Positions 37,544-44,048 of a stretch of 64,000 bases of DNA are shown here, piece after piece (the first letter of the stretch is position 1; each line of letters begins with the position of its first letter). The notes beneath the pieces were generated by a model, which ran no database searches, was not told the origin of the DNA, and worked only from the letters and a program-made list of their open reading frames with translations. The DNA is from Massilia aurea (GTDB taxonomy: Bacteria > Pseudomonadota > Gammaproteobacteria > Burkholderiales > Burkholderiaceae_D). The translations under genes were made by a program, and so were the position numbers. The stretch lies in contig NZ_JACHBX010000001.1 in the NCBI RefSeq assembly GCF_014200505.1, positions 496,001-560,000 on the forward strand. Direction: 5' to 3'.

Positions 37544-37572
37544 TTGACGCAGGTGCGACACTTGTCGCATCA
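37544..37572 (+). promoter_or_regulatory. Candidate promoter/operator of the bla operon
   Basis: A TTGACG -35-like box (37544-37549) is followed 17 bases later by a weak -10 region near 37567. Between and across them lies the palindrome tgcgacacttgtcgca (37554-37569; arms tgcgaca and tgtcgca, 2-base centre). BlaI/MecI-family repressors bind ACA-n-TGT-type palindromes in such positions, so this is a good candidate operator, by inference. Confidence 0.6.
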
Positions 37573-37628
37573 TTGCGGCAAGCGTCACATTCGGCGTCAC
37601 GTCAAGCCTCACGTCAAGGACTGTTGCC

Positions 37629-38012
37629 ATGGCCGTACCCTCGATTTCCGAACTTAGTCTGCTTAAGGCGCTGTGGCGCCAGCAGCCGCTCAGCGCCCGT
37701 GAAATCCACGACGCCGTCGAGGCTGGACTGGGCTGGTCGTATTCGTCCACCCGCAAGACGCTCGAACGCATGCTCGACAAAGGCATGGTGCGCCAGGAGT
37801 TGCGCCACGGCGTGCAGGTGTATGAGGCGCTCAGCGACAAGGTCGATACCTTGGCCGCGTTCGCCCATGACTTTGGCAAGCGCGTGATGGAGATCGATAC
37901 GCCGCTGCCAGTCAATATGTTCACCGGCAGCAAGCTGGTCGACGACGATGAACTCGCGCGCCTGGAGCAATTGCTCAACGACTGGCCCGTCGACAAGGAT
38001 GCGGCCCCATGA
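37629..38012 (+). CDS. blaI: BlaI/MecI/CopY-family repressor
   Basis: 127-aa winged-helix repressor. The N-terminal domain VPSISELSLLKALWRQQPLSAREIHDAV with SYSSTRKTLERMLDKGMVRQEL is the Penicillinase_R fold; the C-terminal half should dimerise. In known systems BlaI dimers repress beta-lactamase operons until cleaved by the sensor-activated proteolytic pathway. It is followed, with a 4-base overlap, by a BlaR1-type sensor and two beta-lactamases, which fixes its role with good confidence. Confidence 0.9.
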   Translation: MAVPSISELSLLKALWRQQPLSAREIHDAVEAGLGWSYSSTRKTLERMLDKGMVRQELRHGVQVYEALSDKVDTLAAFAHDFGKRVMEIDTPLPVNMFTGSKLVDDDELARLEQLLNDWPVDKDAAP

Positions 38013-39724
38013 ACCTGCTCGACGCGACGTTCATCCGCTTCCTGTTCGCCAGCATCGGCTGCCTGGCGGCTGGCGTGGCCGTGTGGGGTGTACTGGCAAT
38101 GGCGCGGCGGTACCTGCCGGCGCTCGGCATGCAGCGCACCCCGTGGATGCTGGGGCAGGTCGCGCTTGCGGCCACCTTCACTATCTTGATGCTGCCACAG
38201 GCGCAGCAGCTTCACATGCTGCCCGTGTTCGACGTCGACCTGTCGCCCGCGACCGCCAGCGCGGTTGCACAACCTGCGCGGGCGGCCGGTGTCACCAGCG
38301 CGTTGGCAGAACCCCGATCGTGGCTGAGCTGGACCGCGTGGGCATGGGCGCTGGCTTACACGGGTGGTCTGCTGTGGATGCTTGCGCGCCTGTTCCATGG
38401 CCAGCGCGCGCTGGCGCAGTTGCTGCGCGCCGGTGCGCACCTGCCAGCGGACGCAGCATTGCCACCTATTATCGAAGTCGACGCCCCCATCTCCCCGATG
38501 CTGGTCGGTCCGTTCCGGCCGTGCCTGCTATTGCCGCTGGCCCTGCGCACGATCGATCCGTTGCAGCGGGACCTGATCATTGCCCACGAACTGACGCACT
38601 GGCGCCGGGGCGATCTGTGGTGGCTGGTCGCCTGCGCGCTGCTCCAGGCGCTGTGCTGGTTCAATCCCGCGATGCGTCTGCTGCGAGCGCGCCTCGTCTG
38701 GGCCCAGGAGCTGGGTTGCGACCGCGACGTGCTGCGTGGCCGGCCGCAGGTCCAGCGCAAGGCGTATGCGGCCGCGCTGGTCGCGCAGCTGCGCTTCCAG
38801 TACCAGGCGGCGCCAGCCAATGCGCTGGCCTTTGGCGGCGTTGCGCCAGACACATTGACCGCGCGCGTTGCATTGATCCGCACGCCGGTCCTCGACCGGA
38901 ATGCTGGCCGTGCACGCTGCGCCGGCCTGGCTGCACTGGCGCTGGTGTTCGGCGCCAATCTGGCCCTGCAGCCAGCGCTGGCCTGGGGCGATGCACCGGA
39001 AACGCTCGACTGCACGCTGATGCTCGATGCTGCCACGGGGGCGGTGCTGGTCGAAGAAGGGCGCTGCGACGTACGCACCACGCCGGTGTCGATCTTCAAT
39101 ATCGCCGTGAGCCTGATGGGATTCGATGCCGGCATCCTGCAGGACACCCACACACCGGCGCTGCCGTTCAAGGCGGGCTACATCGACTGGCAGCCATCGT
39201 GGCGCGCCATTACCGACCCGACGAGCTGGATCCGCAATTCGACCGTCTGGTATGCGCAGCAGGTCACCAGCCGGCTGGGCGAACGCCGCGTGCAGGATTA
39301 CGTGGGTCGCTTCGACTACGGCAACCAGGACCTGACCGGCGGCGTCGACATGGCCTGGATCGCCTCGTCGCTGCAGGTCTCGCCACGTGAACAGGCCGCA
39401 TTTCTGCGCAAGGTCGCCAACCGCGAACTGCCCGTCAGCGCGCACGCATTCGACATGACGGCGCAGCTGCTGCGCTTGCCCACGCTGGCGGATGGCTGGC
39501 AGGTGTACGGCAAGACCGGCACCGCCTCTGGTGATGGGGCCGGGGACAACAGGCGTGCGCTGGGCTGGTTCGTCGGCTGGGCCACCAAGGACGGGCGCAC
39601 CGTCGTCTTCGCGCGCCAGACATTTGGCCCGCGCGACCCGGACCGCGCCGCCGGGCCGCTTCTGAAAGAACGCTTCCTGCGCGCGCTGCCGGGAAGGCTC
39701 GCAACGCTGTCACCGTCCACATAA
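38009..39724 (+). CDS. blaR1: BlaR1-type M56 sensor protease, class D-like domain
   Basis: 571-aa integral-membrane sensor. N-terminal membrane helices flank an M56 zinc metalloprotease with HELTHW (His193, Glu194, His197) and Glu234 in QELGCDRD. After the last helix (about 305-325) comes a periplasmic class D beta-lactamase-like domain: Ser361-Ile-Phe-Asn364 in place of S-x-x-K, Ser411-Thr-Val, Tyr437-Gly-Asn and Lys502-Thr-Gly. The Asn364 codon is AAT (39098-39100); the usual carboxylated Lys is absent. It overlaps the repressor gene by 4 bases and precedes the MBL gene by 9 bases. Confidence 0.9.
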   Translation: MNLLDATFIRFLFASIGCLAAGVAVWGVLAMARRYLPALGMQRTPWMLGQVALAATFTILMLPQAQQLHMLPVFDVDLSPATASAVAQPARAAGVTSALAEPRSWLSWTAWAWALAYTGGLLWMLARLFHGQRALAQLLRAGAHLPADAALPPIIEVDAPISPMLVGPFRPCLLLPLALRTIDPLQRDLIIAHELTHWRRGDLWWLVACALLQALCWFNPAMRLLRARLVWAQELGCDRDVLRGRPQVQRKAYAAALVAQLRFQYQAAPANALAFGGVAPDTLTARVALIRTPVLDRNAGRARCAGLAALALVFGANLALQPALAWGDAPETLDCTLMLDAATGAVLVEEGRCDVRTTPVSIFNIAVSLMGFDAGILQDTHTPALPFKAGYIDWQPSWRAITDPTSWIRNSTVWYAQQVTSRLGERRVQDYVGRFDYGNQDLTGGVDMAWIASSLQVSPREQAAFLRKVANRELPVSAHAFDMTAQLLRLPTLADGWQVYGKTGTASGDGAGDNRRALGWFVGWATKDGRTVVFARQTFGPRDPDRAAGPLLKERFLRALPGRLATLSPST

Positions 39725-39733
39725 GGAATCGTC

Positions 39734-40597
39734 ATGATGAAACAAACAAGCCTGGCACTCGCCGCGGCTGGCCTCGTCGCGTGTCTGCCACCAGCCGCCG
39801 CCAACGACTGGAACACGCCGCAGGCACCGTTTGCCCTGTACGGCAACACCTACTATGTCGGCACGCACGGGCTGTCGGCGGTCCTGATCACGTCGAACGA
39901 GGGGCACATCCTCATTGACGGCGGCAGCGACAAGTCGCCCGCCCAGATCGTGCGCAATATCCGCAAGCTCGGTTTCAAGGTCGAAGACATCCGCTTCATC
40001 CTGAACTCGCACGCACACGCCGATCACGCAGGCGGCATCGCCGAGCTGCAGCGCCTGTCGGGCGCCGAGGTCCTGGCCGGCAGCGCTGCCGTCCCCGTGC
40101 TGCGCAGTGGCCAGGCCGACAAGGGTGACCCGCAATACACCGACCTTCAGCCGATGGCGCCAACTGCTCGCGTGCGGGGCGTGGCCAACGGTCACGTCGT
40201 CAAGCTCGGCCCGCTGGCAGTGACGATGCACGCCACACCCGGCCACACGCAGGGCGGCGCAAGCTGGACCTGGAACGCCGTGGAAGGCGGCCGGACGGCG
40301 CACATGGTCTACGCCGACAGCCTGAACGCCATGGCCGCCGGACCATTCCGCTACCGTGGCCATCCATCCTACCCAACGGCGCGTGCGGACCTCGAACGCT
40401 CGATCGCGACGGTGGCTGGCCTGCCGTGCGACGTGCTGGTCTCGGCGCACCCGGAAGGCAGCGACCTGTGGCAGCGCTACGCCCGGCGCGCTGCGCGGGG
40501 CAATGCCGCCTTCATCGACACCAACGCCTGCCGTACGTATGCTGACAAGGCCAGAGCGCGTCTGGCTGCCCAACTGAGCAAGGAAGCAGACCAATGA
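39734..40597 (+). CDS. Subclass B3 metallo-beta-lactamase
   Basis: 287-aa periplasmic zinc beta-lactamase. Ligands match subclass B3: His93-x-His95 and Asp97-His98 in NSHAHADHAGG, His171 in TPGHTQGGAS, and His239 in SAHPEGSDLW. The signal peptide is ambiguous: cleavage after AAA gives a soluble enzyme, but LVAC at 14-17 resembles a lipobox and would give a membrane-anchored form. THIN-B of Janthinobacterium is a named relative in the same bacterial family. AAGGA lies 6 bases before the start. The class D gene overlaps its stop by 4 bases. Confidence 0.92.
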   Translation: MMKQTSLALAAAGLVACLPPAAANDWNTPQAPFALYGNTYYVGTHGLSAVLITSNEGHILIDGGSDKSPAQIVRNIRKLGFKVEDIRFILNSHAHADHAGGIAELQRLSGAEVLAGSAAVPVLRSGQADKGDPQYTDLQPMAPTARVRGVANGHVVKLGPLAVTMHATPGHTQGGASWTWNAVEGGRTAHMVYADSLNAMAAGPFRYRGHPSYPTARADLERSIATVAGLPCDVLVSAHPEGSDLWQRYARRAARGNAAFIDTNACRTYADKARARLAAQLSKEADQ

Positions 40598-41373
40598 TCA
40601 AGCATGTTATTGCACTCGTCCTGATGGCGTTCGGCGCCGTCGCCCAGGCCACCGAATGGCGCGACAACCCGGCCATCACGCAGCTGTTCAAGAAAGAGGG
40701 CGTGACGGGCACGTTCGTCGTGCACGACGTGGCGCTGGACACCAACACGGGCCACGACCGCCAGCGCGCCGCAAAACGGTTCATCCCGGCGTCGACCTTC
40801 AAGCTCCCGAACTCGCTGATCGCACTGAGCACGGGCGCCGTCGCCTCGGTCGACGAGATCGTGCCGTACGGCGGCAAGTCGGTCGCGCGCCCCGAGTGGG
40901 CACGGGACATGGGCCTGCGCGAAGCGATCAAAATGTCAAACGTGCCCGTCTACCAGGAAGTCGCGCGGCGCATCGGGCGGGAGCGCATGCGCAGCGCGCT
41001 GGTGCGCCTGAATTACGGGAATATGGACACGGGCACGGTGGTCGATCGTTTCTGGCTCGATGGGCCCCTTGAAATCAGCGCGCTCGAACAGACGGTGTTC
41101 CTGGCCCGGCTGGCGCAGGGCCAGCTGCCGTTCGAGAACGTGCACATGGACGCCGTGCGCGCCATCGCGCGTCAGGATGGCCCGGCCGAACTGTATGCGA
41201 AAACCGGCTGGGGCAAGCGGCCCGGCCAGCCCGATATCGGCTGGTGGGTCGGCTGGATCAAGAAGGACGGCAAGCTCTACACGTTCGCGCTGAACATCGA
41301 CATCCCGGACGGATCCAACGACAAGCGCGTATCGCTGGCGAAAGCGGCGCTGCAGTCGCTGGGGCTGCTGTAG
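40594..41373 (+). CDS. Class D (OXA-type) beta-lactamase
   Basis: 259-aa periplasmic serine beta-lactamase. Signal peptide MIKHVIALVLMAFGAVAQA. All class D motifs are present: Ser67-Thr-Phe-Lys70 in PASTFKLPNSL, Ser115-Asn-Val, Tyr141-Gly-Asn and Lys203-Thr-Gly. The active-site Lys70 (carboxylated in active enzymes) is kept, unlike in the sensor encoded two genes upstream. Last gene of the operon; the carbapenemase or penicillinase spectrum cannot be read from the sequence. Confidence 0.93.
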   Translation: MIKHVIALVLMAFGAVAQATEWRDNPAITQLFKKEGVTGTFVVHDVALDTNTGHDRQRAAKRFIPASTFKLPNSLIALSTGAVASVDEIVPYGGKSVARPEWARDMGLREAIKMSNVPVYQEVARRIGRERMRSALVRLNYGNMDTGTVVDRFWLDGPLEISALEQTVFLARLAQGQLPFENVHMDAVRAIARQDGPAELYAKTGWGKRPGQPDIGWWVGWIKKDGKLYTFALNIDIPDGSNDKRVSLAKAALQSLGLL

Positions 41374-41392: not shown

Positions 41393-42310
41393 TTAACCCT
41401 CGTCGGGCCAGTACAGAAGCATCGGATTGTCGACCAGCAACTGGCGCTGCAGTTCGGGCGTCGGCGCGATGTGGGGAATAAAATCGACCAGCAGGCCATC
41501 GTCGGGCATGTGGTCCTTCAGGTTCGGATGCGGCCAGTCGGTGCCCCACAGTACGCGCTCCGGAAATTCCTGCACGATGCGGCGCGCGAACGGCACGACA
41601 TCGCGATACGGATGCGCTTCGCCATCGAGCGCGGGCGGACCCGTGACCGACAACCGTTCCGGGCAGCTGACCTTCGACCAGACGTTCGGGTGACGGCGCA
41701 TGAAGTCCAGGAACAGGCCGAACTCAGGCCCGTCGACGGGTTTGCTGACGTCCGGGCGACCCATGTGATCGACCACGACAATCGTCGGCAGCGCCGCGAA
41801 CAGGTCGCGCAGGTCGGGCAGGTCCTGCGCTTCGAAATACACGACCACGTGCCAGCCGAAGCGGGCGACGCGGGTGGCAATTTCGAGCAGCTCGTCGGCC
41901 GGCGTCACGTCGACCAGGCGCTTGACGAAGTTGAAGCGTACGCCGCGCACGCCGGCGTCATGCAGGCGGGTCAGGTCATCATCGCTGATATCGCGCCGTA
42001 CGGTGGCCACGCCGCGCGCCCGGCCGCCGGCCGCCTGGCAGGCATCGACCAGTGCGCGGTTGTCGGCGCCATGGCAGGTGGCCTGGACGATGACGTTGCG
42101 AGCGAAGCCCAGACGGTCGCGCAGCGCGAACAGCGCTTCCTTGCCGGCGTCGCCCGGCGTGTACTTGCGCTCCGGCGCGAACGGAAACACGGCGGCCGGG
42201 CCGAACACGTGGCAGTGCGCGTCGACGGCGCCCTGCGGCAGGATGAAGCGCGGGGTGGCAGGGGCAGGGTGCGGCTCGAGCCAGCCTGGGGTGGTGGTCT
42301 GCATGGTCAT
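41393..42310 (-). CDS. ligI: 2-Pyrone-4,6-dicarboxylate hydrolase LigI
   Basis: 305-aa amidohydrolase-superfamily enzyme hydrolysing 2-pyrone-4,6-dicarboxylate to 4-oxalomesaconate (or its isomer) in protocatechuate 4,5-cleavage. Signatures: GAVDAHCHVFGP with the HxH, LGFARNVIVQATCHGADN, RGVRFNFVKRLVD, VVDHMGRPDV and VLWGTDWPHPN (final Asp). The match to the LigI pattern is strong throughout. It is the last gene of a minus-strand catabolic operon, 3 bases after ligK. Confidence 0.92.
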   Translation of the reverse strand: MTMQTTTPGWLEPHPAPATPRFILPQGAVDAHCHVFGPAAVFPFAPERKYTPGDAGKEALFALRDRLGFARNVIVQATCHGADNRALVDACQAAGGRARGVATVRRDISDDDLTRLHDAGVRGVRFNFVKRLVDVTPADELLEIATRVARFGWHVVVYFEAQDLPDLRDLFAALPTIVVVDHMGRPDVSKPVDGPEFGLFLDFMRRHPNVWSKVSCPERLSVTGPPALDGEAHPYRDVVPFARRIVQEFPERVLWGTDWPHPNLKDHMPDDGLLVDFIPHIAPTPELQRQLLVDNPMLLYWPDEG

Positions 42311-42313
42311 GGC

Positions 42314-43024
42314 CTAGTCGATATAGATGAGTCCAGCTTGTTCCAGGGCGCCGCGCATGTCGTACATGTCCAGGCCCAGCACGCCGGCGGCCAGCTTCGC
42401 GCGCTTGTTGGCTTCGAGCGCCTCGCGCCTGACGGCGGCAGCAACCACGCGCACCACGTCGGCGGCCGGCACGACGACCACACCATCCTCGTCGGCGACG
42501 ACGGCGTCGCCGGGGCAGACGATCGCGCCGGCGCATACCACCGGGACGTTCACCGAGCCGAGCGTGGCCTTGATCGTGCCCTTGGCGCTGATTGCACGGC
42601 TCCACACCGGAAAGCCCATGGCGGTCAGTTCGCGCACATCGCGCACGCCCGCATCGATGATGAGGCCGCGCGCGCCGCGTGCCATGAAACTGGTGGCCAG
42701 CAGGTCGCCGAAATAGCCATCGCTGCACTCGGCCGTGACGGCCGCCACGACGATGTCGCCGGGCTGGATCTGCTCGGCCGCAACGTGCATCATCCAGTTG
42801 TCGCCTGGCTGCAGCAGCACCGTCACGGCGGTGCCGGCGGCCTGGCCCGGGTAGATCGGGCGCAGGTACGGCTTCATCAGGCCCATGCGGCCCATCGCCT
42901 CGTGCACGGTGGCACTGCCGAGGCGGCCGAGCTGTTCGACTGCAGCGGCATCGGCGCGCACGATATGGCGTTTCACGACGCCTAGCTGCGTGTGCAGGGG
43001 CGGGGAGGTCATCAACGGGTTCAT
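42314..43024 (-). CDS. ligK: 4-Carboxy-4-hydroxy-2-oxoadipate aldolase (LigK/GalC)
   Basis: 236-aa RraA-like class II aldolase cleaving 4-carboxy-4-hydroxy-2-oxoadipate to pyruvate and oxaloacetate, final step of the pathway. Signatures: [16 protein letters not shown]-type region ([17 protein letters not shown]), [15 protein letters not shown] and [19 protein letters not shown], containing metal and pyruvate-binding residues. The ATG at 43024 follows AAAGGAC by 6 bases; an upstream in-frame start at 43081 lies within ligJ. It starts 1 base before the ligJ stop region. Confidence 0.92.
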
Positions 43025-43025
43025 G

Positions 43026-44048
43026 TCACAGTCCTTTGGCGGCAAGGAGGGCGTCCAGGCGCGGATAGACGCGCCTGGCATTGCCTTCGTAGATCTGGTG
43101 GCGTTCGGCGGGGCTCAGGTTGGCCGCATCGATATAGCGCCGCGTGTCATCGTAGTAGTGGCCGGTTTCCGGATCGATGCCGCGCACGGCGCCGATCATC
43201 TCCGACGCAAACAGCACGTTCTTGACCGGAATGACCCTGGTGAGCAGGTCGATCCCCGGCTGGTGATAGACGCAGGTATCGAAGAACACGTTGTTCAGCA
43301 GGTGGTCCTGCAGCAGGGGCTTCTGCATTTCCTGCGCCAGGCCCCGGTAGCGGCCCCAGTGGTAGGGCGCGGCCCCGCCGCCATGCGGGATGATGAACTT
43401 CAGCGTCGGGAAGTCAGCGAACAGGTCGCCGCTGAGCAGTTGCATGAAGGCGGTCGTGTCAGCATTGATGTAGTGCGCGCCCGTCGTATGGAAGCAGGCA
43501 TTGCACGACGTCGACACGTGCACCATCGCCGGGATGTCGTGTTCGACCATCTTTTCATAGAGCGGATACCAGTGGCGGTCGGTCAGCGGCGGGCTGGTCC
43601 AGTGGCCGCCGGACGGGTCCGGGTTCAGGTTGATGGCGACGAAGCCGTATTCCTTCACGCAGCGTTCCAGCTCGGGAATGCAGGTCGCCGGATCGACCCC
43701 GGGCGATTGCGGCAGCATGGCCGCGCCGATGAAGTAGTCCGGAAACAGGGTGCTCACGCGGTGGCACAGCTCGTTGTTGATCGCGGCCCAGGTGGCGCTG
43801 GTCTGCGCGTTACCGATGTGGTGGGCCATGAAGCTGGCGCGCGGTGAAAAGACCGTGAGGTCGATGCCGCGCTCGTGCATCTTGCCAAGCTGGTTGCCGA
43901 TGATGCTGTCGCGCAGTTCGTCGTCGCTGATGTGCAGTTCGCTCGCCGAGGGCGTCGAACCGTCGGCCAGGCCGGCGATCTGGCGCTTGCGCCATGCTTC
44001 CAGCGCGGGCGGGGCAGTGGTGTAGTGGCCGTGGATATCGATGATCAT
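43026..44048 (-). CDS. ligJ: 4-Oxalomesaconate hydratase LigJ
   Basis: 340-aa amidohydrolase-fold hydratase converting 4-oxalomesaconate to 4-carboxy-4-hydroxy-2-oxoadipate. Signatures: [13 protein letters not shown] (HxH), [36 protein letters not shown] and [18 protein letters not shown], with [14 protein letters not shown]. Fits LigJ in length and in neighbours. Its ATG overlaps the galD stop by 4 bases, so the operon is tightly coupled. Confidence 0.93.

Follow-up and report, generated by a model that had tools for sequence, protein, structure and literature searches.

The window analysed here, a stretch of 64,000 nucleotides from the soil-type bacterium Massilia aurea, contains a tight array of four genes on the forward strand (37629–41373) that encode a BlaI repressor, a BlaR-like receptor, a subclass B3 metallo-β-lactamase, and an OXA enzyme. 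The genes and their associated features are:

37544–37573, + strand: predicted sigma-70-like promoter; −35 TTGACG (37544–37549), 18-base spacer, −10 CATCAT (37568–37573), 9/12 consensus matches
37554–37569, no strand assigned: putative BlaI operator from a sequence search, a perfect 7-2-7 dyad (TGCGACA-CT-TGTCGCA) in the promoter spacer
37629–38012, + strand: blaI, repressor, 127 aa; PF03965, 69.6 bits (cut-off 22.6)
38009–39724, + strand: blaR-like receptor gene, 571 aa; PF05569 (M56), 101.1 bits (cut-off 31), and PF00905, 126.6 bits (cut-off 22.1)
38585–38599, + strand: HELTH zinc-protease motif of the receptor, residues 193–197, from sequence
39089–39100, + strand: S361-I-F-N364 of the receptor, from sequence; Asn replaces the catalytic Lys of SxxK
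39356–39358, + strand: omega-loop Trp450 of the receptor, from sequence; Glu in five Lys-keeping receptors
39734–40597, + strand: subclass B3 metallo-β-lactamase, 287 aa, MSI-1-like; equivalog NF033105, 335.1 bits (cut-off 240)
40010–40027, + strand: HAHADH, the HxHxDH zinc motif of B3 enzymes, from sequence
40594–41373, + strand: class D β-lactamase, 259 aa; NF012161, 263.2 bits (cut-off 250); nearest models OXA-50

Neither the dyad at 37554–37569 nor SIFN in place of the receptor's SxxK had been described in an earlier note on this DNA.

The identities given in that note for the four gene products (BlaI, receptor, B3, and class D) were borne out by family scores above the cut-offs and by motifs. 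Besides HAHADH, the B3 enzyme contains two further zinc-ligand His residues, in HTQGG and SAHPE, and the OXA contains the active-site motifs STFK, SNV, YGN, and KTG; both enzymes have, by eye, a signal-peptide-like N-terminus. The best NCBIfam family for the B3 enzyme is MSI-1, a subclass B3 enzyme of Massilia oculi named in PMC10740994, at a score below the family cut-off (NF000456, 456.7 vs. 550 bits), and the OXA also scores below the cut-offs of the OXA-50 (304.7 vs. 580) and OXA-50-var (311.1 vs. 600) families. ORF coordinates agree with the 4-, 9-, and 4-base junctions claimed earlier, i.e., a 4-base ATGA overlap between blaI and the receptor gene, a 9-base gap between the receptor and B3 genes, and a 4-base overlap between the B3 and OXA genes. 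A search for the same gene order, as the note had proposed, recovered it at L075, L116, L082, and L058, and the start codon was located exactly at the 4-base overlap in all 20 blaI–blaR pairs examined, as counted by a script that picked the start nearest to that spot. Recurrence of the order and retention of the overlap argue against a chance arrangement. Terminator-like sites were absent from the forward strand between 37200 and 41700. A promoter-like site lies within the B3 gene (40515–40543), so the OXA gene may have its own start, which counts against the inducible-operon reading. The operon is likely to provide an inducible dual payload of a zinc and a serine enzyme.

Of 188 confirmed matches in the genome_contigs set, the top 80, representing 78 distinct loci, were retained and yielded 62 receptor loci (L075–L136); remote receptors may therefore be missed. 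All of these best-matching loci derive from Oxalobacteraceae except L105, which is from a metagenome bin titled Burkholderiaceae. No full-length receptor was found outside the Oxalobacteraceae in 300 genomes of the order (up to four candidates scored in each) or in 398 genomes of the phylum (up to three in each), and both samples contained few Oxalobacteraceae. Judged by these matches, the window operon belongs to a family found in the Oxalobacteraceae.

The receptor consists of an M56 protease part (residues ~12–266) and a class D-type sensor (~335–561), and H193, E194, and H197 of the protease motif are invariant in 23 receptors. It missed the cut-off of the NCBIfam model blaR1_generic (132.7 vs. 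400). Foldseek matched the receptor model (pLDDT 69.5) to class D enzymes and to S. aureus BlaR1 (8exs), the latter over 610 alignment columns (E = 2.6e-13) with poor superposition (TM 0.35); the domain packing of the model is poor (pTM 0.45). BlaI is the adjacent partner in the window and is found within the fetched stretch of 42 of the 62 loci. The M. aurea genome also encodes a sister type of receptor, with an M23 (LytM-like) domain in the place of the sensor and near-identical operators. In a tree of M56 domains the M56–M23 proteins group together (support 96/99), and the single Gram-positive M56 sits on a very long branch.

Sensor motifs were compared among 64 receptors, comprising those of the window, L058, and L075–L136 (L129 is cut at a contig end; a 22-locus motif set overlaps L075–L136). 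All 64 retain the nucleophile Ser, the Ser of motif II, YGN, and KTG. The Lys column of SxxK is occupied by Asn in 59 receptors, which span Massilia, Duganella, Pseudoduganella, Rugamonas, and Janthinobacterium, and by Lys in the other five, all of which have Glu in place of the omega-loop Trp450. Lys and Trp occur together in 39/39 class D-alt enzymes compared and in 0/64 receptors. Of the columns with conservation of 80% or more in receptors and in enzymes alike, 364 and 416 alone differ between the two. An alignment error in the Lys column is ruled out, with Asn read directly in the DNA and present in 59 receptors. The third residue of motif II (STV in the window) is V in 46, L in 17, and A in one of the 64 receptors, not the polar residue of SxN; S. 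aureus and E. raffinosus BlaR1 have SVN and STN, respectively, i.e., Asn in motif II, and keep both Lys and Trp. We read the Asn and Glu substitutions as two routes to an acylated sensor that would be unable to deacylate. Loss of the same Lys has been engineered in OXA-24/40 K84D (PMC9293634) and in OXA-1 K70D with oxacillin (PDB 4mll), whereas here a natural Asn is found in a receptor. According to PMC9293634, OXA-24/40 K84D is deacylation-deficient and still forms carbapenem acyl-enzymes, and ertapenem is bound by it but not acylated, so acylation itself may be slow without Lys.

Phylogenetic analysis placed the receptor sensors as one clade within class D-alt (OXA-9/18/22-type) enzymes (54-row tree, support 100/98), and sensors and class D-alt enzymes formed one group in a second tree (39 rows, 100/99). 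Union of the sensors with Gram-positive BlaR1 was rejected in the first tree (p-AU 0.0043), as was the grouping of 16 sensors with S. aureus and E. raffinosus BlaR1 in the second (p-AU 0.0006); rows of both trees were hand-picked to thin near-copies, and the long branches call for caution. For the first tree, 50/54 rows had the Lys column masked; for the second, it was masked by motif search, and rows were not individually checked. The rejected grouping with Gram-positive BlaR1 points to separate recruitment, and the sensor was thus probably made from a local class D-alt β-lactamase, independently of Staphylococcus BlaR1. The designation "BlaR1-type sensor" in the earlier note therefore holds for the domain layout and fails for the sensor, which lacks the Lys of SxxK and is placed by the trees outside the Gram-positive BlaR1 lineage. 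A topology with Asn-type receptors as one clade and Lys-type receptors outside was not rejected (54-row tree, p-AU 0.247), and hence no order is claimed for the two states.

Promoter-like sites with 9/12 matches occur twice between 37200 and 41700, against a mean of 0.5 in shuffled sequences. The operator has the family form TGYGACA-NN-TGTCRCA, with 63 sites in 840,031 bases of the 62 loci, compared with 0–1 for 12 permuted palindromes. Sites are absent from three of 63 loci (L109, L123, and L129, the last cut by a contig end). In the loci with a site (n = 60, window included), TTGAC lies 17–18 bases before the operator's end in 55 and an xAxxxT box lies at the operator's end in 54; the operator is counted as lying in the promoter spacer at 55 of the 60. 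The exact dyad occurs in the M. aurea genome only at the window's site, and two sites with one mismatch precede a second BlaI–M56 locus; with up to two mismatches there is no genome-wide excess (26 sites vs. 34 for the reversed control). Six further whole genomes contain ten exact dyads (reversed control, none), eight beside a detected BlaI or receptor and two (G512, G499) about 2.17 kb before a fused enzyme gene, as in L077. These counts against the controls (63 vs. 0–1 and 10 vs. 0) rule out a chance dyad. In two genomes without blaI beside the receptor, one BlaI is encoded elsewhere, under the same operator. A dyad at its own promoter, as expected for a BlaI/MecI repressor, is present in the form of this putative operator.

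Payloads comprise class C, class D, class C–D fusion, B3, and B3 plus serine enzymes, as labelled by BLAST against a single reference or a small number of references per type, with profile checks on two sets of nine proteins. A β-lactamase gene is present by these labels at 53/62 receptor loci, and B3 is paired with a serine enzyme at 11 of the 12 loci that have it; the combination of B3 and OXA, which the note had called unusual, is thus not so within the family. A recognised payload is absent from five of the 62 loci. Four of the five K-type receptors have outer-membrane TonB-type proteins downstream (Pfam on two) and no β-lactamase.

B3 and OXA are joined in one polypeptide in 5/62 genus genomes. 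The fusion of L077, a single ORF of 530 aa, scores 333.3 bits for B3 (cut-off 240) and 276 for class D (cut-off 250). Among the fusions (L076–L078, L190–L194), zinc ligands and serine-site motifs are invariant in seven rows, five of them distinct, and pN/pS ranges are 0.15–0.35 and 0.14–0.26. Only three genomes, all of the genus, have the full-length fusion among 294 family genomes, and none of 1,737 matched plasmid records covers 80% of it. With both domains complete, the fusion is a predicted bifunctional metallo/serine β-lactamase.

We are reasonably confident that the operon is an inducible β-lactam defence with a BlaR1-like receptor whose sensor came from a class D-alt enzyme in a separate recruitment. 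Without drug, BlaI would bind the spacer dyad and block transcription. A periplasmic β-lactam would acylate Ser361 of the class D-type sensor, and because the general-base Lys is Asn, we propose that the adduct would not be hydrolysed and the receptor would stay on. The signal would activate the M56 zinc protease, BlaI would be removed by cleavage, and all four genes would rise, supplying zinc and serine enzymes together. The basis of this scheme is gene order, domains, operator, Asn substitution, conservation, and phylogeny, all at the sequence level. It seems rather unlikely that the sensor instead forms no covalent adduct and that a cell-wall fragment or a non-covalently bound β-lactam, held much as in an effector pocket, still drives BlaI removal. 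Such a sensor would suit an Asn unable to serve as general base; the M23 sister receptor under near-identical operators makes cell-wall ligands plausible, and most K-type receptors precede TonB-type proteins rather than β-lactamases. However, conservation of the Ser nucleophile, motif II Ser, YGN, and KTG throughout the receptors is expected under selection for acylation, and most loci have a β-lactamase payload.

Horizontal gain of a Gram-positive bla operon, followed by amelioration, would account for the alike domain order and BlaI–BlaR partnership, and for the operator core ACA-NN-TGT, which presumably resembles the Gram-positive BlaI/MecI box. It is rejected for the sensor by the trees, both Gram-positive BlaR1 proteins have Lys, Trp, and a motif II Asn, and full-length receptors were confined to Oxalobacteraceae among the candidates scored in the order and phylum genomes; we regard it as very improbable. 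Marginally less credible still is a decaying receptor with constitutive enzymes. No catalytic residue of class D is better known than the Lys that was lost, but Asn recurs in its place across five genera, only two well-conserved columns differ from the enzymes, and the reading frame, the protease motif, and the operator have all been retained.

The preferred reading, an inducible operon with a separately recruited sensor, parallels the Staphylococcus BlaI–BlaR1–BlaZ and MecI–MecR1 systems (cryo-EM 8exp, 8exq, 8exs, 8ext), which likewise combine a repressor, an M56–class D-like sensor, and a β-lactamase payload. The family of the window differs in a sensor derived from class D-alt with Asn in place of Lys (or Glu in place of Trp), in V, L, or A instead of Asn as third residue of motif II, in the B3 plus OXA payload, and in its operator. 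That Bla-type regulation is best known in Gram-positives, as the note remarked, needs qualification, with receptors of this kind already partly in print for Oxalobacteraceae in 2022 and, beside class C–D fusions, in 2018. PMC9045261 (2022) describes OXA–M56 BlaR homologs in Oxalobacteraceae as a second BlaR group with 14 representatives; having a class D active site and M56, these very probably belong to the same protein family. The main text of that paper does not contain the words BlaI, asparagine, or SxxN, and the passages considered here name no B3 partner. PMC5967600 (2018) reports a BlaR1/MecR1–class D gene beside an LRA-13-type class C–class D enzyme in Duganella, Janthinobacterium, and Massilia, with strains shared with the present set (Root418, Root351, CF038, CF458, Root336D2, Root1480D1). 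LRA-13-type enzymes join two serine enzymes, whereas zinc and serine enzymes are paired here, and fused in five genus genomes. The Asn and Glu substitutions, the operator, and the B3–OXA fusion were not found in the open-licence full texts searched.

On balance, we lean towards the view that a BlaR-type β-lactam receptor was built at least twice from a class D enzyme unable to release the drug: through motif II in Gram-positive BlaR1, and in Oxalobacteraceae through loss either of the carbamylated Lys (K to N) or, less often, of its supporting Trp (W to E). Within these operons, Massilia would have moved from B3 and OXA as two genes to a single natural zinc-plus-serine β-lactamase. The family would offer a natural test of the change from β-lactamase to receptor at Lys and Trp, which jointly hold the hydrolytic base. 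In this environmental family, exchangeable class B, C, and D payloads, often zinc plus serine, would lie behind a single operator and repressor type. In the five Massilia genomes where B3 and OXA form one polypeptide, neither a zinc-directed nor a serine-directed inhibitor would be expected to succeed by itself.

The earlier note's four-gene array with junctions of 4, 9 and 4 bases was borne out by the ORFs and by family searches, in which all four products passed the general family cut-off. blaI and the gene of the blaR-like receptor (an M56 protease part and a class D-type sensor) overlap by 4 bases, a 9-base gap precedes the gene of a subclass B3 metallo-beta-lactamase (B3), and B3 overlaps the class D beta-lactamase gene (OXA) by 4 bases.

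Upstream of the operon: short-chain dehydrogenase gene
Upstream of blaI: predicted promoter, TTGACG-18-CATCAT
37554-37569: putative operator, perfect dyad TGCGACA-CT-TGTCGCA, filling the promoter spacer
37629-38012, plus strand: blaI
38009-39724, plus strand: receptor gene
39734-40597, plus strand: B3
40515-40543: promoter-like match within the 3' part of B3
40594-41373, plus strand: OXA
41393-43081, minus strand: amidohydrolase and ligK/pcmE-type aldolase genes (aldolase 376.5 bits, cut-off 304.5)

The window occupies 496001-560000 on a contig of 2.1 Mb. The neighbouring genes look unrelated to the operon; the adjoining amidohydrolase/aldolase pair looks like a piece of a protocatechuate/gallate-type catabolic cluster. 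The promoter-like match within B3 could be a separate start for OXA.

A scan of named genomes identified the M56-plus-class D layout at 62 loci, among the best 80 of 188 confirmed matches, and these together with the window and locus L058 make up the set of 64 receptors. By title, 61 of the loci belong to Massilia, Duganella, Pseudoduganella, Rugamonas, Janthinobacterium or Oxalobacteraceae and one to a Burkholderiaceae bin. Among 300 order-level and 398 phylum-level genomes, with at most four and three candidates scored per genome, respectively, a full-length receptor was recovered only from the window's genome and one other (G018). blaI lies directly before the receptor by coordinates at 42/62 loci and is absent from the fetched stretch at 20/62, one of which (L129) is cut by the contig end. 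In another genome (G079:C1:4208802-4209973), a fragment of the receptor N-terminus (residues 2-85), perhaps a decayed receptor, directly precedes a B3 gene.

The payload genes, labelled by BLAST at the 62 loci, encode class C enzymes alone (n = 25), class C-class D fusions (n = 9), OXA-9/18/22-type enzymes (class D-alt, n = 7), B3-containing payloads (n = 12) or TonB-type outer-membrane proteins (n = 4; L120, L126, L128, L130; Pfam on L120 and L126). At five loci no payload was recognised by these labels (L087, L094, L109, L123 and the truncated L129); at L123 a TonB-type receptor comes next. The B3 loci comprise B3 then class C (n = 4; L085, L086, L098, L132), fused B3-OXA (n = 3; L076-L078), B3 then class D-alt (n = 1; L104), B3 alone (n = 1; L118) and B3 then OXA (n = 3; L075, L082, L116), so that the gene order of the window also occurs among relatives.

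The window sensor scored 279.4 bits against the class_D_alt profile, 0.6 short of the cut-off of 280, and 132.7 bits against the BlaR1 profile (cut-off 400). The receptors form one clade (SH-aLRT 98) in a tree built from the 64 sensors, 10 references and 39 class D-alt enzymes, and a careful 54-row tree places this clade within the class D-alt enzymes (support 100/98). Grouping of the receptor sensors with Staphylococcus aureus BlaR1 was rejected in the 54-row tree (p-AU 0.0043), as was grouping of 16 receptors with the BlaR1 proteins of S. aureus and E. raffinosus (p-AU 0.0006), the latter added as a second BlaR1 that shortens the long branch. An AlphaFold model of the receptor was of medium quality (pLDDT 69.5, pTM 0.45); its top Foldseek matches were class D enzymes (6ni0, OXA-427, OXA-45, OXA-57), and 610 columns aligned with S. 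aureus BlaR1 at a TM of 0.35.

The general base of class D enzymes is the carboxylated lysine of the SxxK motif (PMC9293634), which an omega-loop tryptophan helps to hold (PMC9045261). The motif reads S361-I-F-N364 in the window receptor, and its last position is Asn in 59/64 receptors and Lys in five, compared with Lys in 39/39 class D-alt enzymes and 10/10 references. The tryptophan is kept in all 59 Asn-type receptors, the 39 class D-alt enzymes and the 10 references, and is replaced by Glu in all five Lys-type receptors, which include the four with a TonB-type payload; thus, each of the 64 receptors lacks exactly one of the two residues. The two Gram-positive BlaR1 sensors compared (S. aureus, E. 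raffinosus) keep both and have Asn as the third residue of motif II. All 64 receptors retain the nucleophilic-motif Ser, the Ser of motif II, YGN and KTG; the class D-alt enzymes have YGN in 35/39 and KTG in 36/39. Only one other column conserved to at least 80% in both groups separates Asn-type receptors from enzymes, column 416 (Ala in 58/59 Asn-type receptors, Ser in enzymes). Since the five Lys-type receptors form one clade, the Lys/Glu association represents few events; a topology constrained to one Asn-type clade with the Lys-type outside was not rejected (p-AU 0.247, 54-row tree), and Lys may be either ancestral or regained. OXA-24/40 K84D, which has lost the lysine, is deficient in deacylation, and its acyl-enzymes were captured with imipenem, meropenem and doripenem but not ertapenem (PMC9293634). 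We infer that the receptors are acyl traps.

The dyad is the sole exact site in its own genome; the only two 1-mismatch sites (G000:C5:154056 and 154090) both precede a second blaI-M56 pair (L063, 6086-8031), which is followed by a TonB-dependent receptor. At up to two mismatches the dyad showed no excess in this genome (26 versus 34 for the reversed control). The consensus TGYGACA-NN-TGTCRCA with at most one mismatch had 63 sites in the 62 related loci (840,031 bases), whereas of 12 permuted palindromes 11 had none and one had a single site. Counting the window, 60/63 loci carry the site, which was not found at L109, L123 and the truncated L129; TTGAC stands 17-18 bases ahead of it in 55/60, and an xAxxxT -10 box starts with its last bases in 54/60. 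Six further whole genomes held the exact pattern at 10 places (reversed control, none), eight adjoining a matched BlaI or receptor and two (G512, G499) about 2.17 kb ahead of a fused enzyme gene, as at L077. Two genomes (G188, G166) have a receptor without blaI and a single blaI elsewhere, beside a different M56 gene, and the operator lies at exactly those two blaI places, which, on the basis of these two genomes, argues for a single repressor that would serve the receptors in trans.

The M56 partner in the second pair has a Peptidase_M23 (LytM-like) extracytoplasmic domain (Pfam on L063 and L072). Such pairs also occur at L064 and L071-L074, and HxxxD and HxH are readable in 6/6 sequences; the M56-M23 protein may share the receptor's design and sense the cell wall.

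B3 and OXA stay two overlapping genes in the window's species, whereas the B3 gene of M. arenae, Massilia sp. HP4 and M. timonae continues into the mature OXA domain as one ORF of 530-532 aa without the OXA signal peptide. A genus search recovered the fusion, stop-free and at 83-100% identity, from 5/62 genomes (fusion loci overall, L076-L078 and L190-L194), three with proteins identical to those of the named species; among 294 genomes of the family it was full-length in three, all Massilia. The HP4 fusion exceeds both equivalog cut-offs, scoring 333.3 for B3 (cut-off 240) and 276 for class D (cut-off 250). Across seven rows, five of them distinct, there is no variation in the zinc ligands or in Ser, Lys, SxV, YGN and KTG, and pN/pS is 0.15-0.35 for the B3 half and 0.14-0.26 for the OXA half (10 pairs, five sequences).

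This kind of operon is partly known. Fourteen representative Oxalobacteraceae proteins with a class D site and M56 were described as a second BlaR group (PMC9045261, 2022), in a main text from which the words BlaI and asparagine are absent, and class C-class D fusions adjoin BlaR1/MecR1-class D genes, in Massilia strains also with a regulator gene (PMC5967600, 2018). Neither a B3-class D fusion nor BlaI in Massilia was found in open-licence full texts. We believe four elements to be new: the Asn/Glu receptors, the sensor that according to the trees was recruited separately, the putative operator common to these loci, and the B3-OXA fusion. The operon is real and would most likely provide inducible beta-lactam defence.
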